Below are positions 553 through 7,620 of a DNA stretch of 64,000 nt, piece after piece (the stretch's first letter is position 1; each line of letters opens with the position of its first letter). The notes under the pieces were generated by a model, which was not told where the DNA came from, searched no databases, and was given only the letters and a program-made list of their open reading frames with translations. The translations under genes and the position numbers were made by a program. The stretch is taken from contig JAMNXU010000031.1 in assembly GCA_023623175.1 (NCBI GenBank), positions 1-64,000 of the forward strand, in the 5' to 3' direction. The DNA comes from Bacillota bacterium. GTDB taxonomy: Bacteria; Bacillota; Clostridia; Acetivibrionales; JAMNXU01.

Positions 553-1638
553 ATGAACAAATGGAAGAAGTTAAAAGTAAGGTTTTGGGCTCTTTCCAAA
601 ATAGCCATGATAATCATTATATTGATTTGGCTTGCTGTTGCAGCGTTAACTGCTCACGCGTTTACAACAAAGCAGTTTATAGAACAGAAGATAAATAAAA
701 ATGTAATTATTCAAAGTACGGTTTTTGATTACAAAACCAAGGCATTGCCTTACGGTGTTGTCGGAGTTGAGGGAGTGATATTCCCAAAAACGCAGAATGT
801 CGTGGATGTATATGTCAAAACTGCGATAACTGCTGACAAGCCAGTCACTGTCAAAGGCAATTATTCAATATTGCTTAAATTAGTAGCTGAAGGTTTATGG
901 GAGCGTACCACGACACTCAAGGGCAGACAGAATTTTAACATGAAAGGAGAAAGTGTAGAAGTTATAAATCAAAAGGTTTCTATTGATCTAGGAAAAATTT
1001 ACAGCGACATTGAGACAATTTCCAACAAGGCCATAGGGCACATGCCGGCCAAATTTTTATTGCATGTTATCCCGGTTATTGAGGGGGATATAACTTTTGA
1101 AAACAGAAAGATAAATCTTGAATCAAACACGGCCATGATGTTTGAACTGTCTGAAAGCCAGATGATGTTAAGCGGAGAAAATGAATATTTCTGGCGGACC
1201 CCTGTTGATGAGATTAAAGTAGTGGAATATAAACTAAACTTGTTTAATCTGATGGTACCCGTTCCGGTTTACAGGTATGTTTCGCTTTCTGTTTTTCTGA
1301 TTTATTCTGCTTTTGTATTACTGGTTTTGATATCAAGAAAACAGATAGAAATTGAACATATGACCGAGGATGACAAGATAGAAAAGAGGTACAGGAACAG
1401 GCTGGTTTCCGTCCGACAGCCTATAGAATTTAAGGATAAAACGCTCATTCCCCTGGACAGCATGAAAGAGCTGGTAAGAATATCTGATGAGCAGGACAGG
1501 GGAATATTAAAATATCGCGATGATATGGAGGAAAAGACATATTACTGTGTAATTGAAGATGATTATATCTATATATATACCGTTAATGAAGATAACGGAA
1601 AAAAGAAGGGACTGTACAACTACATGTACGATTTTTAA
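553..1638 (+). CDS. DUF5305-type membrane protein of a SipW/TasA-like locus
   Basis: A 361-residue protein with an N-terminal membrane segment (about 16-35), an extracellular beta-rich region of about 200 residues, a second membrane segment (about 240-261) and a charged cytosolic tail of about 100 residues. This layout and the central region fit DUF5305 proteins, which in Clostridia and archaea often sit beside SipW-like signal peptidases, as here. The enzymatic role is unknown; a scaffold or sensor for export or assembly of surface fibres is an inference. The ATG has a GGAG about 10 nt upstream. The DUF assignment comes from sequence character and neighbourhood, not from a search. Confidence 0.7.
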   Translation: MNKWKKLKVRFWALSKIAMIIIILIWLAVAALTAHAFTTKQFIEQKINKNVIIQSTVFDYKTKALPYGVVGVEGVIFPKTQNVVDVYVKTAITADKPVTVKGNYSILLKLVAEGLWERTTTLKGRQNFNMKGESVEVINQKVSIDLGKIYSDIETISNKAIGHMPAKFLLHVIPVIEGDITFENRKINLESNTAMMFELSESQMMLSGENEYFWRTPVDEIKVVEYKLNLFNLMVPVPVYRYVSLSVFLIYSAFVLLVLISRKQIEIEHMTEDDKIEKRYRNRLVSVRQPIEFKDKTLIPLDSMKELVRISDEQDRGILKYRDDMEEKTYYCVIEDDYIYIYTVNEDNGKKKGLYNYMYDF

Positions 1639-1809: not shown

Positions 1810-2439
1810 ATGAAAAAAGGTAAAATTTTTGTAGTGCTGACCCTTTTGATAGTGGCAGCAGTAATGGCTTCGATAGGAACCGGAGCTATTGACGTATTCA
1901 AGGCAGAACGTACGTCCAGCATGAAAGTTGCCAGCGATGCAGAAGGTTTTATTGGAATTTCGTCCAGTTCGCCCTATGCGAAGGTTAACAAGGAAGGAGC
2001 CATTGAGTTCGACTTCTCTACGGCTCTCGCAAAAGGTTTTAATGCTCAGTCTTTAACAGAGGTCCACAACGTATTTACTGTTACCAACCAGAGCGCACAG
2101 ACACTTTATGTATGGCTCGAAGCTGAAGGTTGGGATTCCTGGCATAATGCAGGATTAAGATACAGGATCCAGGATACCAACGGCGAAGTCACAAACGTGG
2201 ATGCCTGGTATGGAAATACCAAGCCCGAGGGCAAGGATTTGCTCATGTCCACTTCCTGGAACTTCAAGGACGGCGTAGGTAAGATGGCATATGTAAAACT
2301 CGATCCCGGTGAATATTTCACTGCAAAAGTAATTGTCAACACCAAGCTGTCCAATGGATACGGAAGAGCCGGCAAGGATTGGAGCCATACCGTTATATTC
2401 AAGGCAAACAAGGAAGCTCCGAAGAGACCTGCCCAATAA
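1810..2439 (+). CDS. TasA/DUF1102-like exported fibre protein
   Basis: A 209-residue protein with a basic N-terminus, a hydrophobic segment (residues 6-24) and a GTGAIDVF motif just after it. That motif resembles the processing region of TasA-type substrates of SipW signal peptidases. The mature part starts with VASDAEGFIGI, reminiscent of DUF1102 and archaeal TasA-like pilin proteins, and is a predicted beta-sandwich with Thr/Asn-rich strands. No LPXTG anchor is present. A strong Shine-Dalgarno site (AAGGAGGG) precedes the ATG. It is probably the main structural subunit of an extracellular fibre, secreted through the signal peptidase encoded next door. A strong terminator follows, which would make this gene more highly expressed than the peptidase. 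Confidence 0.72.
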   Translation: MKKGKIFVVLTLLIVAAVMASIGTGAIDVFKAERTSSMKVASDAEGFIGISSSSPYAKVNKEGAIEFDFSTALAKGFNAQSLTEVHNVFTVTNQSAQTLYVWLEAEGWDSWHNAGLRYRIQDTNGEVTNVDAWYGNTKPEGKDLLMSTSWNFKDGVGKMAYVKLDPGEYFTAKVIVNTKLSNGYGRAGKDWSHTVIFKANKEAPKRPAQ

Positions 2440-2674: not shown

Positions 2675-3799
2675 ATGAAAACGGTAAACAGGTTTTTAAA
2701 AGCGATGATATATGTCATTATAACCGGTTTATTAATAAATCTCGCAATTAACGTCATATACAGAGATAATGAATCGAGACCAATAAGCCTGTGGTACGTT
2801 TATTCAGAAAGTATGGAACCAACCATAATGACCAATGACGGGTTTATTCTGGTTTCATCGAAAACATATAAGGTAGGAGATATCATAACATTTAAACCCA
2901 GGGTTCTTGAACAGCCTTTTGTAACTCACAGAATAATAGATATAACGAAGGATGGAAAATTCATAACAAAGGGCGACAATAATGTAATGACAGATCAGCA
3001 GGGCGGTGAACCCCTGATACAGCAAAGCCAGGTGATAGGCAAGGTGCTGAACATATGGGGCAAGCCAGTTATTATACCCAGGCTGGATTTGATAGATAAA
3101 AAATTGCAGGATAGTATTTCAAAACTAAATATATTTATGCTCATATCCGTATTGATTCTTGTATATGCCCTTGGATTTGCGCTGGACATGTTATTTAACA
3201 GGGAGCTTTCCAGGAAAAACAAAAAGGACAGAATTCGCCTGCTTGATATTGCGCCCTTTTTTGATCCCGTGTTTTTCCTGATTTGCCTGATAATTATCGC
3301 CAATGCCCTGTTTATAGGGCAGACTATGAAAAGCTGGAAAGCGGAAGAGATTGCCTATGTTGTAGTTAGCACGAAAGGACTGCCTAATCCATTACCGGGA
3401 GAGAAGTTCGAAAGGACACGAAGCCTTGAAAATTTGTCCTTTATTCCATACTATACGGTTTTGGAGGCAAAAGACGCCAATATGATTATAAAACCGGGAT
3501 TTTTCACGATGAATCCGAAAGAAAAAACCGATTATGTTGTGTCTATTACTGCTCCTGAGAAAACAGGATACTACGTGCAAAAGATTTATATAAAAACATA
3601 TCCCCGGCTGATTTCTCAGAAATTAATGGAGTACCTGTATTCAATAAACCCTTATATACCGCTGATAATTGTTTTTTCTCCCGGAATAATTCTTGTCGTG
3701 GCGTTGTATTTCCTGTGGGCGAGAAGATGGGAAAAAGGCAGAAAATTGGTCATGGACTGGTTAATACCTCTTCGTGTTAAATTGAAGAAATTTGTATAA
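2675..3799 (+). CDS. SipW-like (ER/archaeal-type) signal peptidase I
   Basis: A 374-residue S26B-type signal peptidase. The serine box is SESMEPT with the nucleophile at S46. The general base region reads FVTHRI with H85 where bacterial LepB has lysine, and KGDNN (D101) completes the third box. These are the marks of the SipW/archaeal/eukaryotic-ER class. After the catalytic core come membrane segments at about 152-175 and 195-215, an extra extracellular domain of about 115 residues, and a last membrane segment near 332-352. The protein is thus much longer than the roughly 190-residue Bacillus SipW. It presumably processes the two TasA-like neighbours. Confidence 0.88.
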   Translation: MKTVNRFLKAMIYVIITGLLINLAINVIYRDNESRPISLWYVYSESMEPTIMTNDGFILVSSKTYKVGDIITFKPRVLEQPFVTHRIIDITKDGKFITKGDNNVMTDQQGGEPLIQQSQVIGKVLNIWGKPVIIPRLDLIDKKLQDSISKLNIFMLISVLILVYALGFALDMLFNRELSRKNKKDRIRLLDIAPFFDPVFFLICLIIIANALFIGQTMKSWKAEEIAYVVVSTKGLPNPLPGEKFERTRSLENLSFIPYYTVLEAKDANMIIKPGFFTMNPKEKTDYVVSITAPEKTGYYVQKIYIKTYPRLISQKLMEYLYSINPYIPLIIVFSPGIILVVALYFLWARRWEKGRKLVMDWLIPLRVKLKKFV

Positions 3800-3845: not shown

Positions 3846-3873
3846 TTTACAAAAAAATTAAGAAAACTATTAT
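3846..3873 (+). promoter_or_regulatory. Possible promoter of the riboswitch transcript
   Basis: TTTACA (3846-3851), a 16-bp spacer and TATTAT (3868-3873) would start RNA near 3880, just before the c-di-GMP aptamer. The elements are weak matches, and other AT-rich hexamers nearby could serve instead. Confidence 0.4.
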
Positions 3874-3889
3874 ATACTTTAATAGAATT

Positions 3890-3957
3890 TGGGCGCGATG
3901 AAGCATATATCATAATCTGGGCACCTGATATATGTGGAGCTAGTGGTGCAACCGACC
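3890..3957 (+). ncRNA. Class II cyclic-di-GMP riboswitch aptamer
   Basis: The segment contains CTGGGCACCTGA, then GGAGCTAGTGGTGC, then AACCGACC, in the order and spacing of the Clostridium acetobutylicum c-di-GMP-II aptamer. CATATATC (3904-3911) pairs with GATATATG (3927-3934), and GGCAC pairs with GGTGC as in the known fold. The 3-prime CCGACC, conserved in the aptamer, is also the 5-prime arm of the following terminator. Ligand binding should therefore compete with termination, which predicts an ON switch (inference). It controls the TasA-like gene at 4097 and perhaps the two-component genes after it. Confidence 0.93.
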
Positions 3958-3989
3958 AATGAGATTATGTTCTTATTGGTCGTTTTTTT
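3953..3989 (+). terminator. Terminator (expression platform) of the c-di-GMP-II riboswitch
   Basis: CGACCAATGAG (3953-3963) and CTTATTGGTCG (3972-3982) form an 11-bp stem with one wobble and an 8-nt loop, followed by seven T. Its 5-prime arm overlaps the last bases of the aptamer, so aptamer and terminator are mutually exclusive. Confidence 0.9.
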
Positions 3990-4096
3990 AGGTTTTTCCT
4001 ATAAGTATAATTATTCCAGTATGTGTGTATAATCCATATAAGATCAGACCTATGCGTGTATTTAATGGTTTGATCGGAAAGAGGGAAAGGGCCGGG

Positions 4097-4975
4097 ATGA
4101 AAATAAGAGGGAATAGAAGAAAAAGGCATAAAAGAACGCTATCATTACATTATTTATTAGCATTAATGATGCTTATATCAGTATTGATTTCGACTACCCA
4201 GAGCAGCTTCGGAATAGATGTCCTGCAGGCAGGCAGGGGAATAAATGCTGTAATTGCCGCTAACGACAGCGCTTTTGTTGGAATAATGCATGACGATGTA
4301 TATAAAGTTGTTTATTCTGAAGAAAAAAGTAATAACTTTATATCCATGCATGTTAAAAACAACATGCCAGAACAGGCGACATTTTCTATATCCTTATCGG
4401 GTCAGACGGTCAAAGATTATTTACCGGGCAGCTTTACGCTGAGCCCCGGCGAAGTTCAGTTCATTGAAATTCAGTTGCTGGACCTGGAAGAAGCATTTGA
4501 AAAATCCATAGAAGGGATTTCAGATATTTTGGGTATTGTTTCTGCCCAGTCCGGCCAGGGAAGCGTAAATGCTCAGTTCTCGTTTGCAGTGGAAGTAGAT
4601 TTGCCGGAAAAGAAAGAGACTCGTGAAGAGTTGCAGGAAGGCGAAAACAAAGAGGAAGCGGCAGAAAAGAATGCAATGGAAAAGGCTGCAGGAAAAGACG
4701 CTACTGAAAAGGATGGACCGAAACTGGATGCGCCTGGTAAGGATATGTCTGAAAAGCAAGCAATTGAAAAGAATGTGATGAAAGTAGACACAACTGAAAA
4801 GAAAACGACTGAAAATGATGATAACGAGAAAGGAACGATCACAGAAGATTTAAATAAAAAGGAAGTCTCAGCAGAAAATGCATCCGGAAAGAAAGTTGTG
4901 CAGGAAAATTCTGTACGGGAAGACGGGGGCAATGAAAAAACAAAGGAAGCGGATGCTGAAGGCACCGATACCTGA
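4097..4975 (+). CDS. Second TasA-like exported protein with Lys/Glu-rich tail
   Basis: The ATG at 4097 has a GAGGGAAAGGG ribosome site; an upstream in-frame GTG at 4025 lacks one. The 292-residue product has a very basic N-terminus and a hydrophobic segment (about 18-37). The mature start ANDSAFVGI resembles the DUF1102/TasA-like start of the gene at 1810. It continues with a beta-rich domain to about residue 168, then a low-complexity tail of about 120 residues built from EK/KD/TEK units. There is no cell-wall sorting motif. It is probably a fibre-associated or anchoring subunit that is exported and processed by the SipW-like peptidase and made only when c-di-GMP is high. The function of the tail is unknown; ionic binding to wall polymers or matrix is a guess. 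Confidence 0.68.
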   Translation: MKIRGNRRKRHKRTLSLHYLLALMMLISVLISTTQSSFGIDVLQAGRGINAVIAANDSAFVGIMHDDVYKVVYSEEKSNNFISMHVKNNMPEQATFSISLSGQTVKDYLPGSFTLSPGEVQFIEIQLLDLEEAFEKSIEGISDILGIVSAQSGQGSVNAQFSFAVEVDLPEKKETREELQEGENKEEAAEKNAMEKAAGKDATEKDGPKLDAPGKDMSEKQAIEKNVMKVDTTEKKTTENDDNEKGTITEDLNKKEVSAENASGKKVVQENSVREDGGNEKTKEADAEGTDT

Positions 4976-5022
4976 AACACGACCCAAAAAGAGAAAGATG
5001 CCAAAGAATAAGAAGGGGTTTT

Positions 5023-6729
5023 ATGTTCAAGGTATTAATCAATAAAATAGCAAACAATAATTCTAGAGAAATCAGGGTTATATACCTGTACAGATATCTT
5101 TCGCTGGTTTTTACTTCCTTATTCTACTTATTTGACAACCTTACCAAATATTTTCTTTATAAATTGGGAGTAATCATCATATTGTTCATAACTTCAAGAA
5201 TATTGACAAATTTATACTCCAGGTACTCGAACAATTCAAAGGCAATCAAGAGTCTTGTGCTGAGCGAGACCTTCGGAATTTCGATGCTGTTGTTGCCCAC
5301 GGGCGGACTGAACAGCCCCTTCATTTGGTACGCGATGAATCCCGTGCTGGTTTCCGCGAGCTTTTTGACGGGTTTGTTCTGCTGGTTCAATCTTGGTTTC
5401 TATCTTGCGATTTCGGCAAGCGTGTCATATTTCATTTTTAACACCGGGAACAAATCGGCAGTTGAAATATTGTCCGATAATTCTCATCTTATTTTAATAT
5501 TCATCCTGATGACTTTGGGAGTGCAGCTCCTGTTGAAGCTGGCCCATGAGCTCTGCAACGAAAGGAACAGGCTGAGGGAAAAAAACGACCAGTTGGCCGA
5601 GGCAAACGAAAAGATAAAAGAATCCATTGAACATATAATGTCGCTGTACCAGGCGGTTGAAACGTTTACGGCCCAGGACAGCAGGGAAAAACTGATGAAT
5701 ACCATAATTTTTTACGCAAGGGAACTGACGAAGTCAAAATCTTCATTTTTCAGACAGGCAGGCTTAAACAATTCGAATGGAATCATTACGTGCGGAGATA
5801 TTTCTCCCGAAGACCAACGGCTGATAGGGGAGGAACTGGACGGATTAGCCGAATTGCAGGAAGAAGCTGATAAGAATATATTGCATGTAAGAATACGGAA
5901 CAGGACATTTGCCATAAGCGTTGTAAAATCGGCATCGAGGCTTTTCGGAATCCTCGGGGTTGAAACGGAAGAATTCCATGAAAATGATTACCTGTTTGAA
6001 AAGCTGTTCAGCTTCCTGACAGAGTTAAGCGCCGTAATACTGGAAAGATTGTACCTGGAGGAATTCAGCCAGAAGCTGGTTATAACGGAGGAACAGAACC
6101 GTATAGCGAACGAAATGCACGACAGTGTTTCCCAGAGGCTATTCAGTATTTCATGCGCAATACATACGCTGGTAGCTAAGTATTCGAAGATGTCCGAAGC
6201 AGAATTGCGCGATCAGTTGATAAGGATCATGAAAACATCGAACATGGCCATGGAGGAACTGCGATCGGCCATATACAAGCTCAGTTCCAGGAAACAGGGA
6301 AAAAGGGCATTTCAGACGGATATCAGGGACTACCTCGAAAGTATTGCGAAATTAAACAATGTTAATGTCAGGTTTAAATGCTCCGGGGACGAAGATCTTC
6401 TTACGGGTGCGTTGAAGAAGGCGCTGTACAGGATTATAGCGGAATCGACAGGCAACTCCATAAAACATGGCAAATGCAGCGAAATTGTTGTTGATCTTAA
6501 TATTAATGATATCTGTACTGAATTAACTGTAAAGGATGACGGAAAAGGTTTTATTGTTGAAAATGCGGCAAAAAGAAAAGGCCTTGGCATTGACAATATA
6601 AAGAGGCTTGTAAATTCCTTCAACGGGAGTCTGAATATTGACAGCGAACCTGAAAAGGGAACATGCATCAGGGTAAGTATTCCCAACAGGAAACTGGTTA
6701 CTCTTGATGAGGGAGGTTTGGTGGTATGA
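5023..6729 (+). CDS. NarL/DegS-type membrane sensor histidine kinase
   Basis: A 568-residue kinase. The first 180 residues carry several membrane segments and no large extracellular domain. A coiled coil (about 180-215) and a GAF-like region (about 220-340) follow, then a HisKA_3 domain with NEMHDSVSQRLF (phospho-accepting H366) and a HATPase domain (N-box near N478, DDGKGF at 505-510, GLGIDNI). The small transmembrane input suggests it senses a membrane or intracellular cue. It starts 47 nt after the riboswitch-controlled gene with no terminator visible between them, so it may share that transcript. It overlaps the response regulator by 4 nt and presumably phosphorylates it. Confidence 0.93.
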   Translation: MFKVLINKIANNNSREIRVIYLYRYLSLVFTSLFYLFDNLTKYFLYKLGVIIILFITSRILTNLYSRYSNNSKAIKSLVLSETFGISMLLLPTGGLNSPFIWYAMNPVLVSASFLTGLFCWFNLGFYLAISASVSYFIFNTGNKSAVEILSDNSHLILIFILMTLGVQLLLKLAHELCNERNRLREKNDQLAEANEKIKESIEHIMSLYQAVETFTAQDSREKLMNTIIFYARELTKSKSSFFRQAGLNNSNGIITCGDISPEDQRLIGEELDGLAELQEEADKNILHVRIRNRTFAISVVKSASRLFGILGVETEEFHENDYLFEKLFSFLTELSAVILERLYLEEFSQKLVITEEQNRIANEMHDSVSQRLFSISCAIHTLVAKYSKMSEAELRDQLIRIMKTSNMAMEELRSAIYKLSSRKQGKRAFQTDIRDYLESIAKLNNVNVRFKCSGDEDLLTGALKKALYRIIAESTGNSIKHGKCSEIVVDLNINDICTELTVKDDGKGFIVENAAKRKGLGIDNIKRLVNSFNGSLNIDSEPEKGTCIRVSIPNRKLVTLDEGGLVV

Positions 6730-7337
6730 AGATAGGGATAATTGATGATCATCCCCTGGTAAGGCAGGGACTTATCTCGGTTCTGTCAATATATGAAGAT
6801 TTTGAAGTTGTGGGAGAAGCGACGAACTGCCGCGAAGGCATAGCCATGATAATGGAAAAAAGGCCGGAGATCGCGCTTATTGATCTTAAACTCGGAAATG
6901 ATTGCGGCTTTGATATTATAAGAGAAGTGAAGGATAAAACCGAATCAAGATTTGTAATACTTACTTCATCGGCTGAACAGGGCGATTTTCTGCAGGCGGA
7001 ATTACTGGATGTCGACGGATATATCCTTAAGGAAGCTCTTCCCGAGGAGCTTATATATGGACTGAGACTGATTTATAAAGGAAGAAAATACTATGATCCG
7101 GGCCTTGTGAGATTACAGATGAAGAGGGACGACGACCCTCTCGAGCTGCTTACCCAAAGAGAAAAAGAGGTTTTGCTGGCCCTCGGCGAGGGACTCAGCA
7201 ACAGGGAAATTTCCGAGAGGCTTTATGTGACTGAACACACGGTAAAGAAACATGTAAGCCAGATCCTCTCAAAGCTGAATCTTGCCGACAGAACCCATGC
7301 CGTCATATTTGCCTACAACAGGGGGCTTATTGGATAA
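6726..7337 (+). CDS. LuxR/NarL-family response regulator
   Basis: A 203-residue regulator with a receiver domain (acidic pocket DDHP at 6-9, phospho-acceptor D53 in LIDLKL, the usual T/S and K positions in LTSSA and ILKEAL) and a LuxR-type helix-turn-helix from about 138 (LLTQREKEVL, then a recognition helix near EHTVKKHV). The ATG overlaps the kinase stop codon (ATGA), so the pair is translationally coupled. Likely targets are the neighbouring fibre genes or the lipoprotein, but no operator repeat is evident. Confidence 0.94.
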   Translation: MKIGIIDDHPLVRQGLISVLSIYEDFEVVGEATNCREGIAMIMEKRPEIALIDLKLGNDCGFDIIREVKDKTESRFVILTSSAEQGDFLQAELLDVDGYILKEALPEELIYGLRLIYKGRKYYDPGLVRLQMKRDDDPLELLTQREKEVLLALGEGLSNREISERLYVTEHTVKKHVSQILSKLNLADRTHAVIFAYNRGLIG

Positions 7338-7590: not shown

Positions 7591-7620
7591 AAAAACAGGT
7601 GATATCCACCTGTTTTTATT
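7591..7620 (+). terminator. Terminator after the two-component operon
   Basis: AAAAACAGGTG (7591-7601) and CACCTGTTTTT (7607-7617) form an 11-bp stem with a 5-nt loop and an A-tract/T-tract, so it could work in both directions. Confidence 0.85.

Follow-up and report, generated by a model that had tools for sequence, protein, structure and literature searches.

A predicted c-di-GMP-II ON riboswitch before a two-component system at a SipW-type secretion locus of a clostridial genome

We analysed a 64,000-nucleotide stretch of DNA (the window) from a Bacillota genome. The locus that follows its SipW-type signal peptidase gene is best explained as a c-di-GMP-II riboswitch acting as a predicted transcriptional ON switch, with the genes of a secreted protein, a sensor kinase and a response regulator probably under its control; we put the probability of this reading at about 0.87. 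Computed support was obtained for the aptamer, the terminator, the overlap between the two, the recurrence of that overlap, the order of the genes and the switches carried by relatives (Table 1). The most likely meaning of the arrangement is that c-di-GMP would gate the two-component system accompanying a SipW secretion locus, for which CmrRST of C. difficile offers a precedent.

Table 1. Positions of the predicted switch and of the genes and sites around it in the window
Feature	Position	Strand	Score or remark
DUF5305 membrane protein	553..1638	+	PF17231 58.3 bits, cut-off 29
Small secreted protein, presumed peptidase substrate	1810..2439	+	No Pfam/NCBIfam family over cut-off; weak TafE match, 23.1 bits vs 155
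SipW/archaeal-type signal peptidase I with C-terminal extension, directly upstream of the switch	2675..3799	+	TIGR02228 80.0 bits, cut-off 51.85
Sigma-70-like promoter, TTTACA - 16 nt - TATTAT	3846..3873	+	Consensus scan; start point would be about 3880
c-di-GMP-II riboswitch aptamer (RF01786)	3882..3966	+	69.1 bits, gathering 53.5
P1 5′ strand (UUGG)	3889..3892	+	Pairs with 3956-3959
Rfam consensus hairpin, 3903-3910 / 3928-3935	3903..3935	+	8/8 pairs standard
Intrinsic terminator hairpin	3953..3982	+	12 pairs, loop of 6, about -17.6 kcal/mol
Shared strand CCAA: P1 3′ strand and part of the terminator 5′ arm	3956..3959	+	
Run of seven T (terminator)	3983..3989	+	
Secreted protein, 292 aa (signal segment, beta-sandwich-like core, charged low-complexity tail); first gene under predicted control	4097..4975	+	
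Sensor histidine kinase (HisKA_3, HATPase_c)	5023..6729	+	47 nt after the previous stop codon
Response regulator with LuxR/GerE DNA-binding domain	6726..7337	+	
Next terminator-like site after that of the riboswitch	7591..7617	+	

Aptamer, terminator and the strand they share

A scan of the whole window with the Rfam covariance models returned two matches, a tmRNA and the c-di-GMP-II aptamer, the latter covering positions 1-84 of the 84 in the model (E 2e-13) and lying above the gathering score. A preliminary description of this DNA had proposed such an aptamer and named the Rfam model as its check, and the covariance-model match bore this out; the element was indeed present, but the proposed start at 3890 was 8 bases late compared with 3882. 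It was the single c-di-GMP-II copy found in the genome (2.85 Mb, 39 contigs). Class I c-di-GMP riboswitches gave no match in this genome, and the control likewise gave none; GGDEF matches in the same genome numbered eight.

Judged by its sequence, 3882-3966 is a member of the c-di-GMP-II class and is predicted to bind the ligand. Standard pairs were found at 15 of the 22 model pairs: the long hairpin was complete, the short inner helix kept 2 of 3 pairs and P1 kept 5 of 11, with its inner four intact. On reading the sequence, GCACC in the hairpin loop (3921-3925) was also found to be complementary to GGUGC in the 3′ joining strand (3945-3949), a pairing that would correspond to the pseudoknot of published class II aptamer structures.

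The terminator stem is built from the arms 3953-3964 and 3971-3982, and its 5′ arm consists of CGACC plus AATGAGA. The earlier proposal that the CCGACC at the aptamer end (3952-3957) also makes the terminator stem thus held for CGACC but not for the first C, which is unpaired. P1 and the terminator are mutually exclusive, as had likewise been proposed, because the CCAA strand is needed by both helices. When the fold of 3882-3992 was compared with 200 dinucleotide shuffles, none was as stable (z -3.14), and when the aptamer was kept fixed while its 3′ flank was shuffled by mononucleotides, none of the 2000 shuffles produced an overlapping terminator as good.

Folds of the growing transcript in a nested model contained no terminator until about 3970 and the full terminator by 3983. 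In this model, which leaves out the pseudoknot and the ligand, the terminator state reached -33.7 kcal/mol as against -16.2 kcal/mol with the aptamer pairs enforced, and since the former is favoured by about 17 kcal/mol, OFF would be the default in the absence of ligand. The incomplete set of standard model pairs and a P1 of 4 strong pairs count against the switch: the ligand would have to beat a terminator favoured to this extent, which calls for a kinetic advantage.

For the window switch, we infer the following ligand response and transcript ends. RNA polymerase would start at about 3880 and transcribe the aptamer first. When c-di-GMP is absent, the weak P1 (4 standard pairs) would open, its 3′ strand would enter the 5′ arm of the 12-pair terminator, and transcription would end at about 3989. 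When c-di-GMP is bound, P1 would keep the CCAA strand during transcription, the terminator would come too late to form, and the polymerase would proceed through the genes of the secreted protein, the sensor kinase and the response regulator.

Genes around the switch

The candidate promoter came from a consensus scan that is weak alone, because 28 sigma-70-like sites were found in the stretch against 24.6 expected. An alignment of the window with its three related loci (see below) placed a TTTACA/TTAACA-like hexamer and an A+T-rich -10 region at the same place. No terminator-like site was found on the + strand between 2502 and 3953, and the switch therefore probably gates read-through from the SipW operon as well. 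Against the narrow Bacillus SipW model NF046067, the peptidase at 2675-3799 scored 48.5 bits, below the cut-off of 190, and it is called SipW-like in the broad family sense only.

For both secreted proteins (1810-2439 and 4097-4975), no Pfam or NCBIfam model for TasA or camelysin was over its cut-off, and fold searches with their low-confidence models gave no TasA among the best 50 matches listed for each. Naming the small secreted protein by its fold was abandoned: its model had a mean pLDDT of 54, and the matches, an enterotoxin fold and assorted sandwiches with a query TM of about 0.3 or below, were treated as noise.

Two further conserved stretches were observed in this upstream part. Some 80 nt at about 420-500, ahead of the DUF5305 gene, were strongly conserved across the four loci, and a regulator-binding region or a promoter is possible there. 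The leader before gene 1810 (1639-1809) was also conserved in all four, with a mean pairwise identity of 0.75 over its core; its 5′ CUCUCC/CCCUCC paired with the ribosome site in 4/4 predicted folds (probability paired 1.0), and the folds had z values of -2.87, -1.89, -1.62 and -2.59. Rfam gave nothing near a gathering score for this leader, a model built from it matched only the four related loci among 58 genomes, and it may represent an undescribed translational leader. A short ORF within it was rejected, with codon-position differences of 66/49/58 and an in-frame stop in one relative (G421).

Behind the switch, the preliminary description had placed a fibre gene. This identity was not established: the protein encoded at 4097-4975 matched no Pfam/NCBIfam family over cut-off, and its low-confidence AlphaFold model (beta-sandwich core, mean pLDDT 51) looked more like an Ig-like sandwich than like any known fibre. 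Its best PDB matches were mostly PapD/MSP-type Ig-like sandwiches at a query TM of 0.20-0.29; they were treated as noise about function, and the protein was not named from them. Homologues were found only in the relatives G425 and G418 (42-43% identity) among the genomes searched: matches were obtained in 1 of 391 genomes of the class (the window's own) and 3 of 58 genomes of the order (the window's own included), and a search of genome contigs returned two loci, those of the same two relatives. Both homologues align from about 4097, and a GTG at 4025 offers an alternative start. The 4097-4975 product begins with GIDV..A.R, much as the small secreted protein does, and so may be a substrate of the same SipW-type peptidase.

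The kinase and regulator genes behind it, apparently of the same transcription unit, had been missed earlier. Since no terminator was found before 7591, the three genes would form one transcription unit, and the switch probably controls the secreted protein, the kinase and the regulator together, the two grounds for this being spacing and the absence of a terminator. It is unlikely, by comparison, that the switch governs the secreted-protein gene alone and that the kinase and regulator use a promoter inside that gene, an arrangement which would rival only the operon part of the reading. Promoter-like sites within genes do occur at chance frequency, and the kinase of the relatives has its own leader and switch, so that an independent kinase promoter is probably ancestral; in the window, however, the two genes have lost the ancestral leader that lay between them and stand 47 nt apart with no trace of an aptamer, no terminator separates them, and no second aptamer was detected before the kinase in 4880-5080, even at E up to 10.

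Related loci and switch history

Close homologues of the SipW peptidase (66-71% identical) were found in three other genomes of the 58 in the order (G421, G418 and G425), and these also carry the kinase at 74-79% identity; the locus with this SipW gene is thus present in 4 of 58, the window's genome included. In all four, a c-di-GMP-II switch precedes the kinase: no other gene comes between them in three, and the secreted-protein gene stands between them in the window. In G425 and G418, the secreted-protein gene and the kinase gene are each preceded by an aptamer of their own (73.4-80.5 bits), and the terminator overlap is the same in all four of these aptamers; that relatives have a further switch immediately ahead of the kinase had also escaped the preliminary description. 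In G421, an aptamer was found solely before the kinase (69.4 bits). At the first position of this genome (L074 7700-7840, G421:C171), a hairpin with the same arms was seen beside an aptamer decayed to recognisable scraps, with no RF01786 match in L074 7600-7900 at E up to 10, and the secreted-protein gene that follows has lost its 5′ half. The window keeps the first aptamer only, and its kinase is joined 47 nt behind the secreted-protein gene without a remnant of the second.

Over aptamer plus terminator, the three second-position copies were 0.89-0.93 identical to one another. The window copy was closest to the first-position copy of G425 (0.87), followed by the second-position copy of G421 (0.85) and the first-position copy of G418 (0.83). 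The simplest reading of these comparisons is that the ancestor carried both switches and that they were lost independently.

A rival reading is that the window aptamer has itself decayed or never reaches a bound state, its hairpin being a constitutive terminator of the SipW operon. This appears to have happened at the first position of G421, where the hairpin was retained beside an unmatched aptamer and a truncated gene, and the short P1 of the window aptamer would fit such a state as well. For the window we consider it very improbable: the aptamer scores 69.1 bits with an intact conserved core, the gene behind it is undamaged and shares 42-43% identity with its homologues, and the decayed copy of G421 is itself the picture of what lost constraint looks like. 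That decayed aptamer with its living terminator suggests how a riboswitch whose gene dies can revert to being a terminator and nothing more. If the ON-switch reading is true, the four related loci constitute a small natural experiment on the merging and loss of riboswitches.

Shortly after the first terminator in L034 and L035, G425 and G418 share an almost unchanged stretch, TTCCAGGAAGTATAGTT...AATATGTATATAAT, and the window preserves part of it; this stretch could serve as a further promoter whose transcripts avoid the switch.

No c-di-GMP-II aptamer over the gathering score was present in L075-L079, five further stretches that are SipW-like or bear a kinase. In L075, L076, L077 and L079, a related kinase and regulator occur together with a DUF5305-like protein; blast also recognised a peptidase in the first three of these but not the candidate in L079. 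L078 contains a peptidase and a small secreted protein, and no kinase was recognised there. The kinase/regulator pair therefore often accompanies such secretion loci, and the riboswitch seems to have been added in one branch. L075 (G000:C15 37439-46068) comes from the same genome as the window; it is a further SipW/DUF5305/kinase/regulator cluster, lacks a riboswitch and adjoins the gene of a GGDEF protein.

A broader joint reading may be offered tentatively. The locus would be a conserved cascade in which c-di-GMP, via one or two class II ON riboswitches within the one locus, licenses a two-component system dedicated to a SipW-type locus; the kinase would add an outside signal and so make an AND gate, and the regulator would feed back on the secretion locus by activating the DUF5305/secreted-protein/SipW operon. 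The second switch would have been deleted in the window lineage, so that one switch runs both genes, and the first would have decayed with its gene in another lineage, and a structured leader of a kind not yet described may hide the ribosome site of gene 1810. If true, c-di-GMP would be tied to a SipW-type secretion locus by an RNA switch, not a protein receptor, in a poorly known clostridial lineage.

Recurrence of the platform, polarity and known systems

Of the 391 genomes searched in the class, 51 had a c-di-GMP-II aptamer (45 of them above the cut-off), as had 13 of the 58 in the order (9 above it). Forty-six loci were examined with their flanks, made up of 30 of the 86 places in the class and 16 of the 17 in the order, the 17th being the window itself. 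By a fixed rule, a terminator 5′ arm covering the inner P1 strand was present at 20 of the 46, and 14 of these 20 lie outside the locus family of the window; 26 failed the rule, and the count of 20 is a lower bound because some failing loci have longer arms (e.g. L007). Across the 20 loci, P1 pairs amounted to 88/100, against a shuffled mean of 70.4 and a best of 84 in 2000 shuffles. The terminator pairs amounted to 96/100 (shuffled mean 73.2, best of 2000 shuffles 85), a count that is biased because the loci were chosen for having a hairpin. In these shuffles, partner strands were dealt among the loci and the relatedness of the loci was ignored; when the five aptamers related to that of the window were removed, P1 gave 69/75 and the terminator 71/75, with shuffle maxima of 63 and 61. 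The shared-strand design is a recurrent expression platform, not peculiar to the window.

At five c-di-GMP-II loci, L051, L054, L041 (G416), L043 (G427) and L044 (G407), a T run was observed at once or a few bases after the aptamer CCGGC/CCAGC, and no strong separate terminator hairpin was recognised by the rule. The platform in these five may work differently.

The ON polarity put forward in the preliminary description is very likely, as judged from the architecture, from the same platform at 19 other loci and from the ON behaviour that has been published for the class II switches of C. difficile. These are reported as transcriptional ON switches with cmrRST among their targets (accessible part of PMC11477304), a class II ON switch is described before cmrRST (accessible part of PMC8844915), and positive control by all four class II switches of that species is stated in the accessible text of PMC3649979, where one figure legend reads 'negatively', contrary to the paper's own text. 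That the ligand might instead promote termination or hide a ribosome site is scarcely credible here: a class II switch with a ribozyme is reported to act on translation in C. difficile (accessible part of PMC11477304), but the ribosome site of the window lies >100 nt past the terminator, and no alternative anti-terminator that the ligand could disrupt was seen in the growing-transcript folds.

In the openly licensed literature, no description was found of a c-di-GMP riboswitch at such a SipW/TasA/camelysin-type locus, and the combination of a class II c-di-GMP riboswitch with a histidine kinase was found for C. difficile only, not for this locus. The predicted ON switch resembles Cdi2_3 and Cdi2_4 of C. 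difficile, which precede adhesin and pilin genes, in its aptamer family, its positive control (predicted here) and its surface-protein targets, as far as these are given in the accessible parts of PMC3649979 and PMC11477304, but its target genes are others. Riboswitches for c-di-GMP are described as tending to occur in tandem (accessible part of PMC12452182), whereas the two switches of the related loci precede different genes.

On the secretion side, the locus is like sipW-bsaABCRSD of Clostridium perfringens in joining a SipW peptidase, a secreted protein (polymer-forming in bsa) and a two-component system, with BsaR reported to bind the sipW promoter (PMC7395162, accessible part); the gene order there differs from that of the window, and within that part of the paper, words on c-di-GMP or riboswitches were found only in titles of references. 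It is also like tapA-sipW-tasA of Bacillus subtilis in having a SipW-type peptidase beside likely secreted substrates (in part after PMC7395162), but unlike it in that the secreted proteins of the window match no Pfam/NCBIfam model over cut-off, TasA or other.

On the signalling side, the locus resembles cmrRST with Cdi-2-2 of C. difficile, where a class II c-di-GMP ON switch (predicted in the window) likewise stands before a signal-transduction operon (PMC8844915, accessible part). Published accounts give cmrRST regulators of the OmpR family and a promoter element that can be inverted, whereas the window has a HisKA_3 kinase, a LuxR-type regulator and an adjoining SipW secretion locus. The mechanism of the switch and the type of sensor are already known, while the set of controlled genes appears to be undescribed; what the locus adds to the known systems is a conserved coupling of c-di-GMP to the two-component system of a SipW-type locus, together with a legible history of switch loss.
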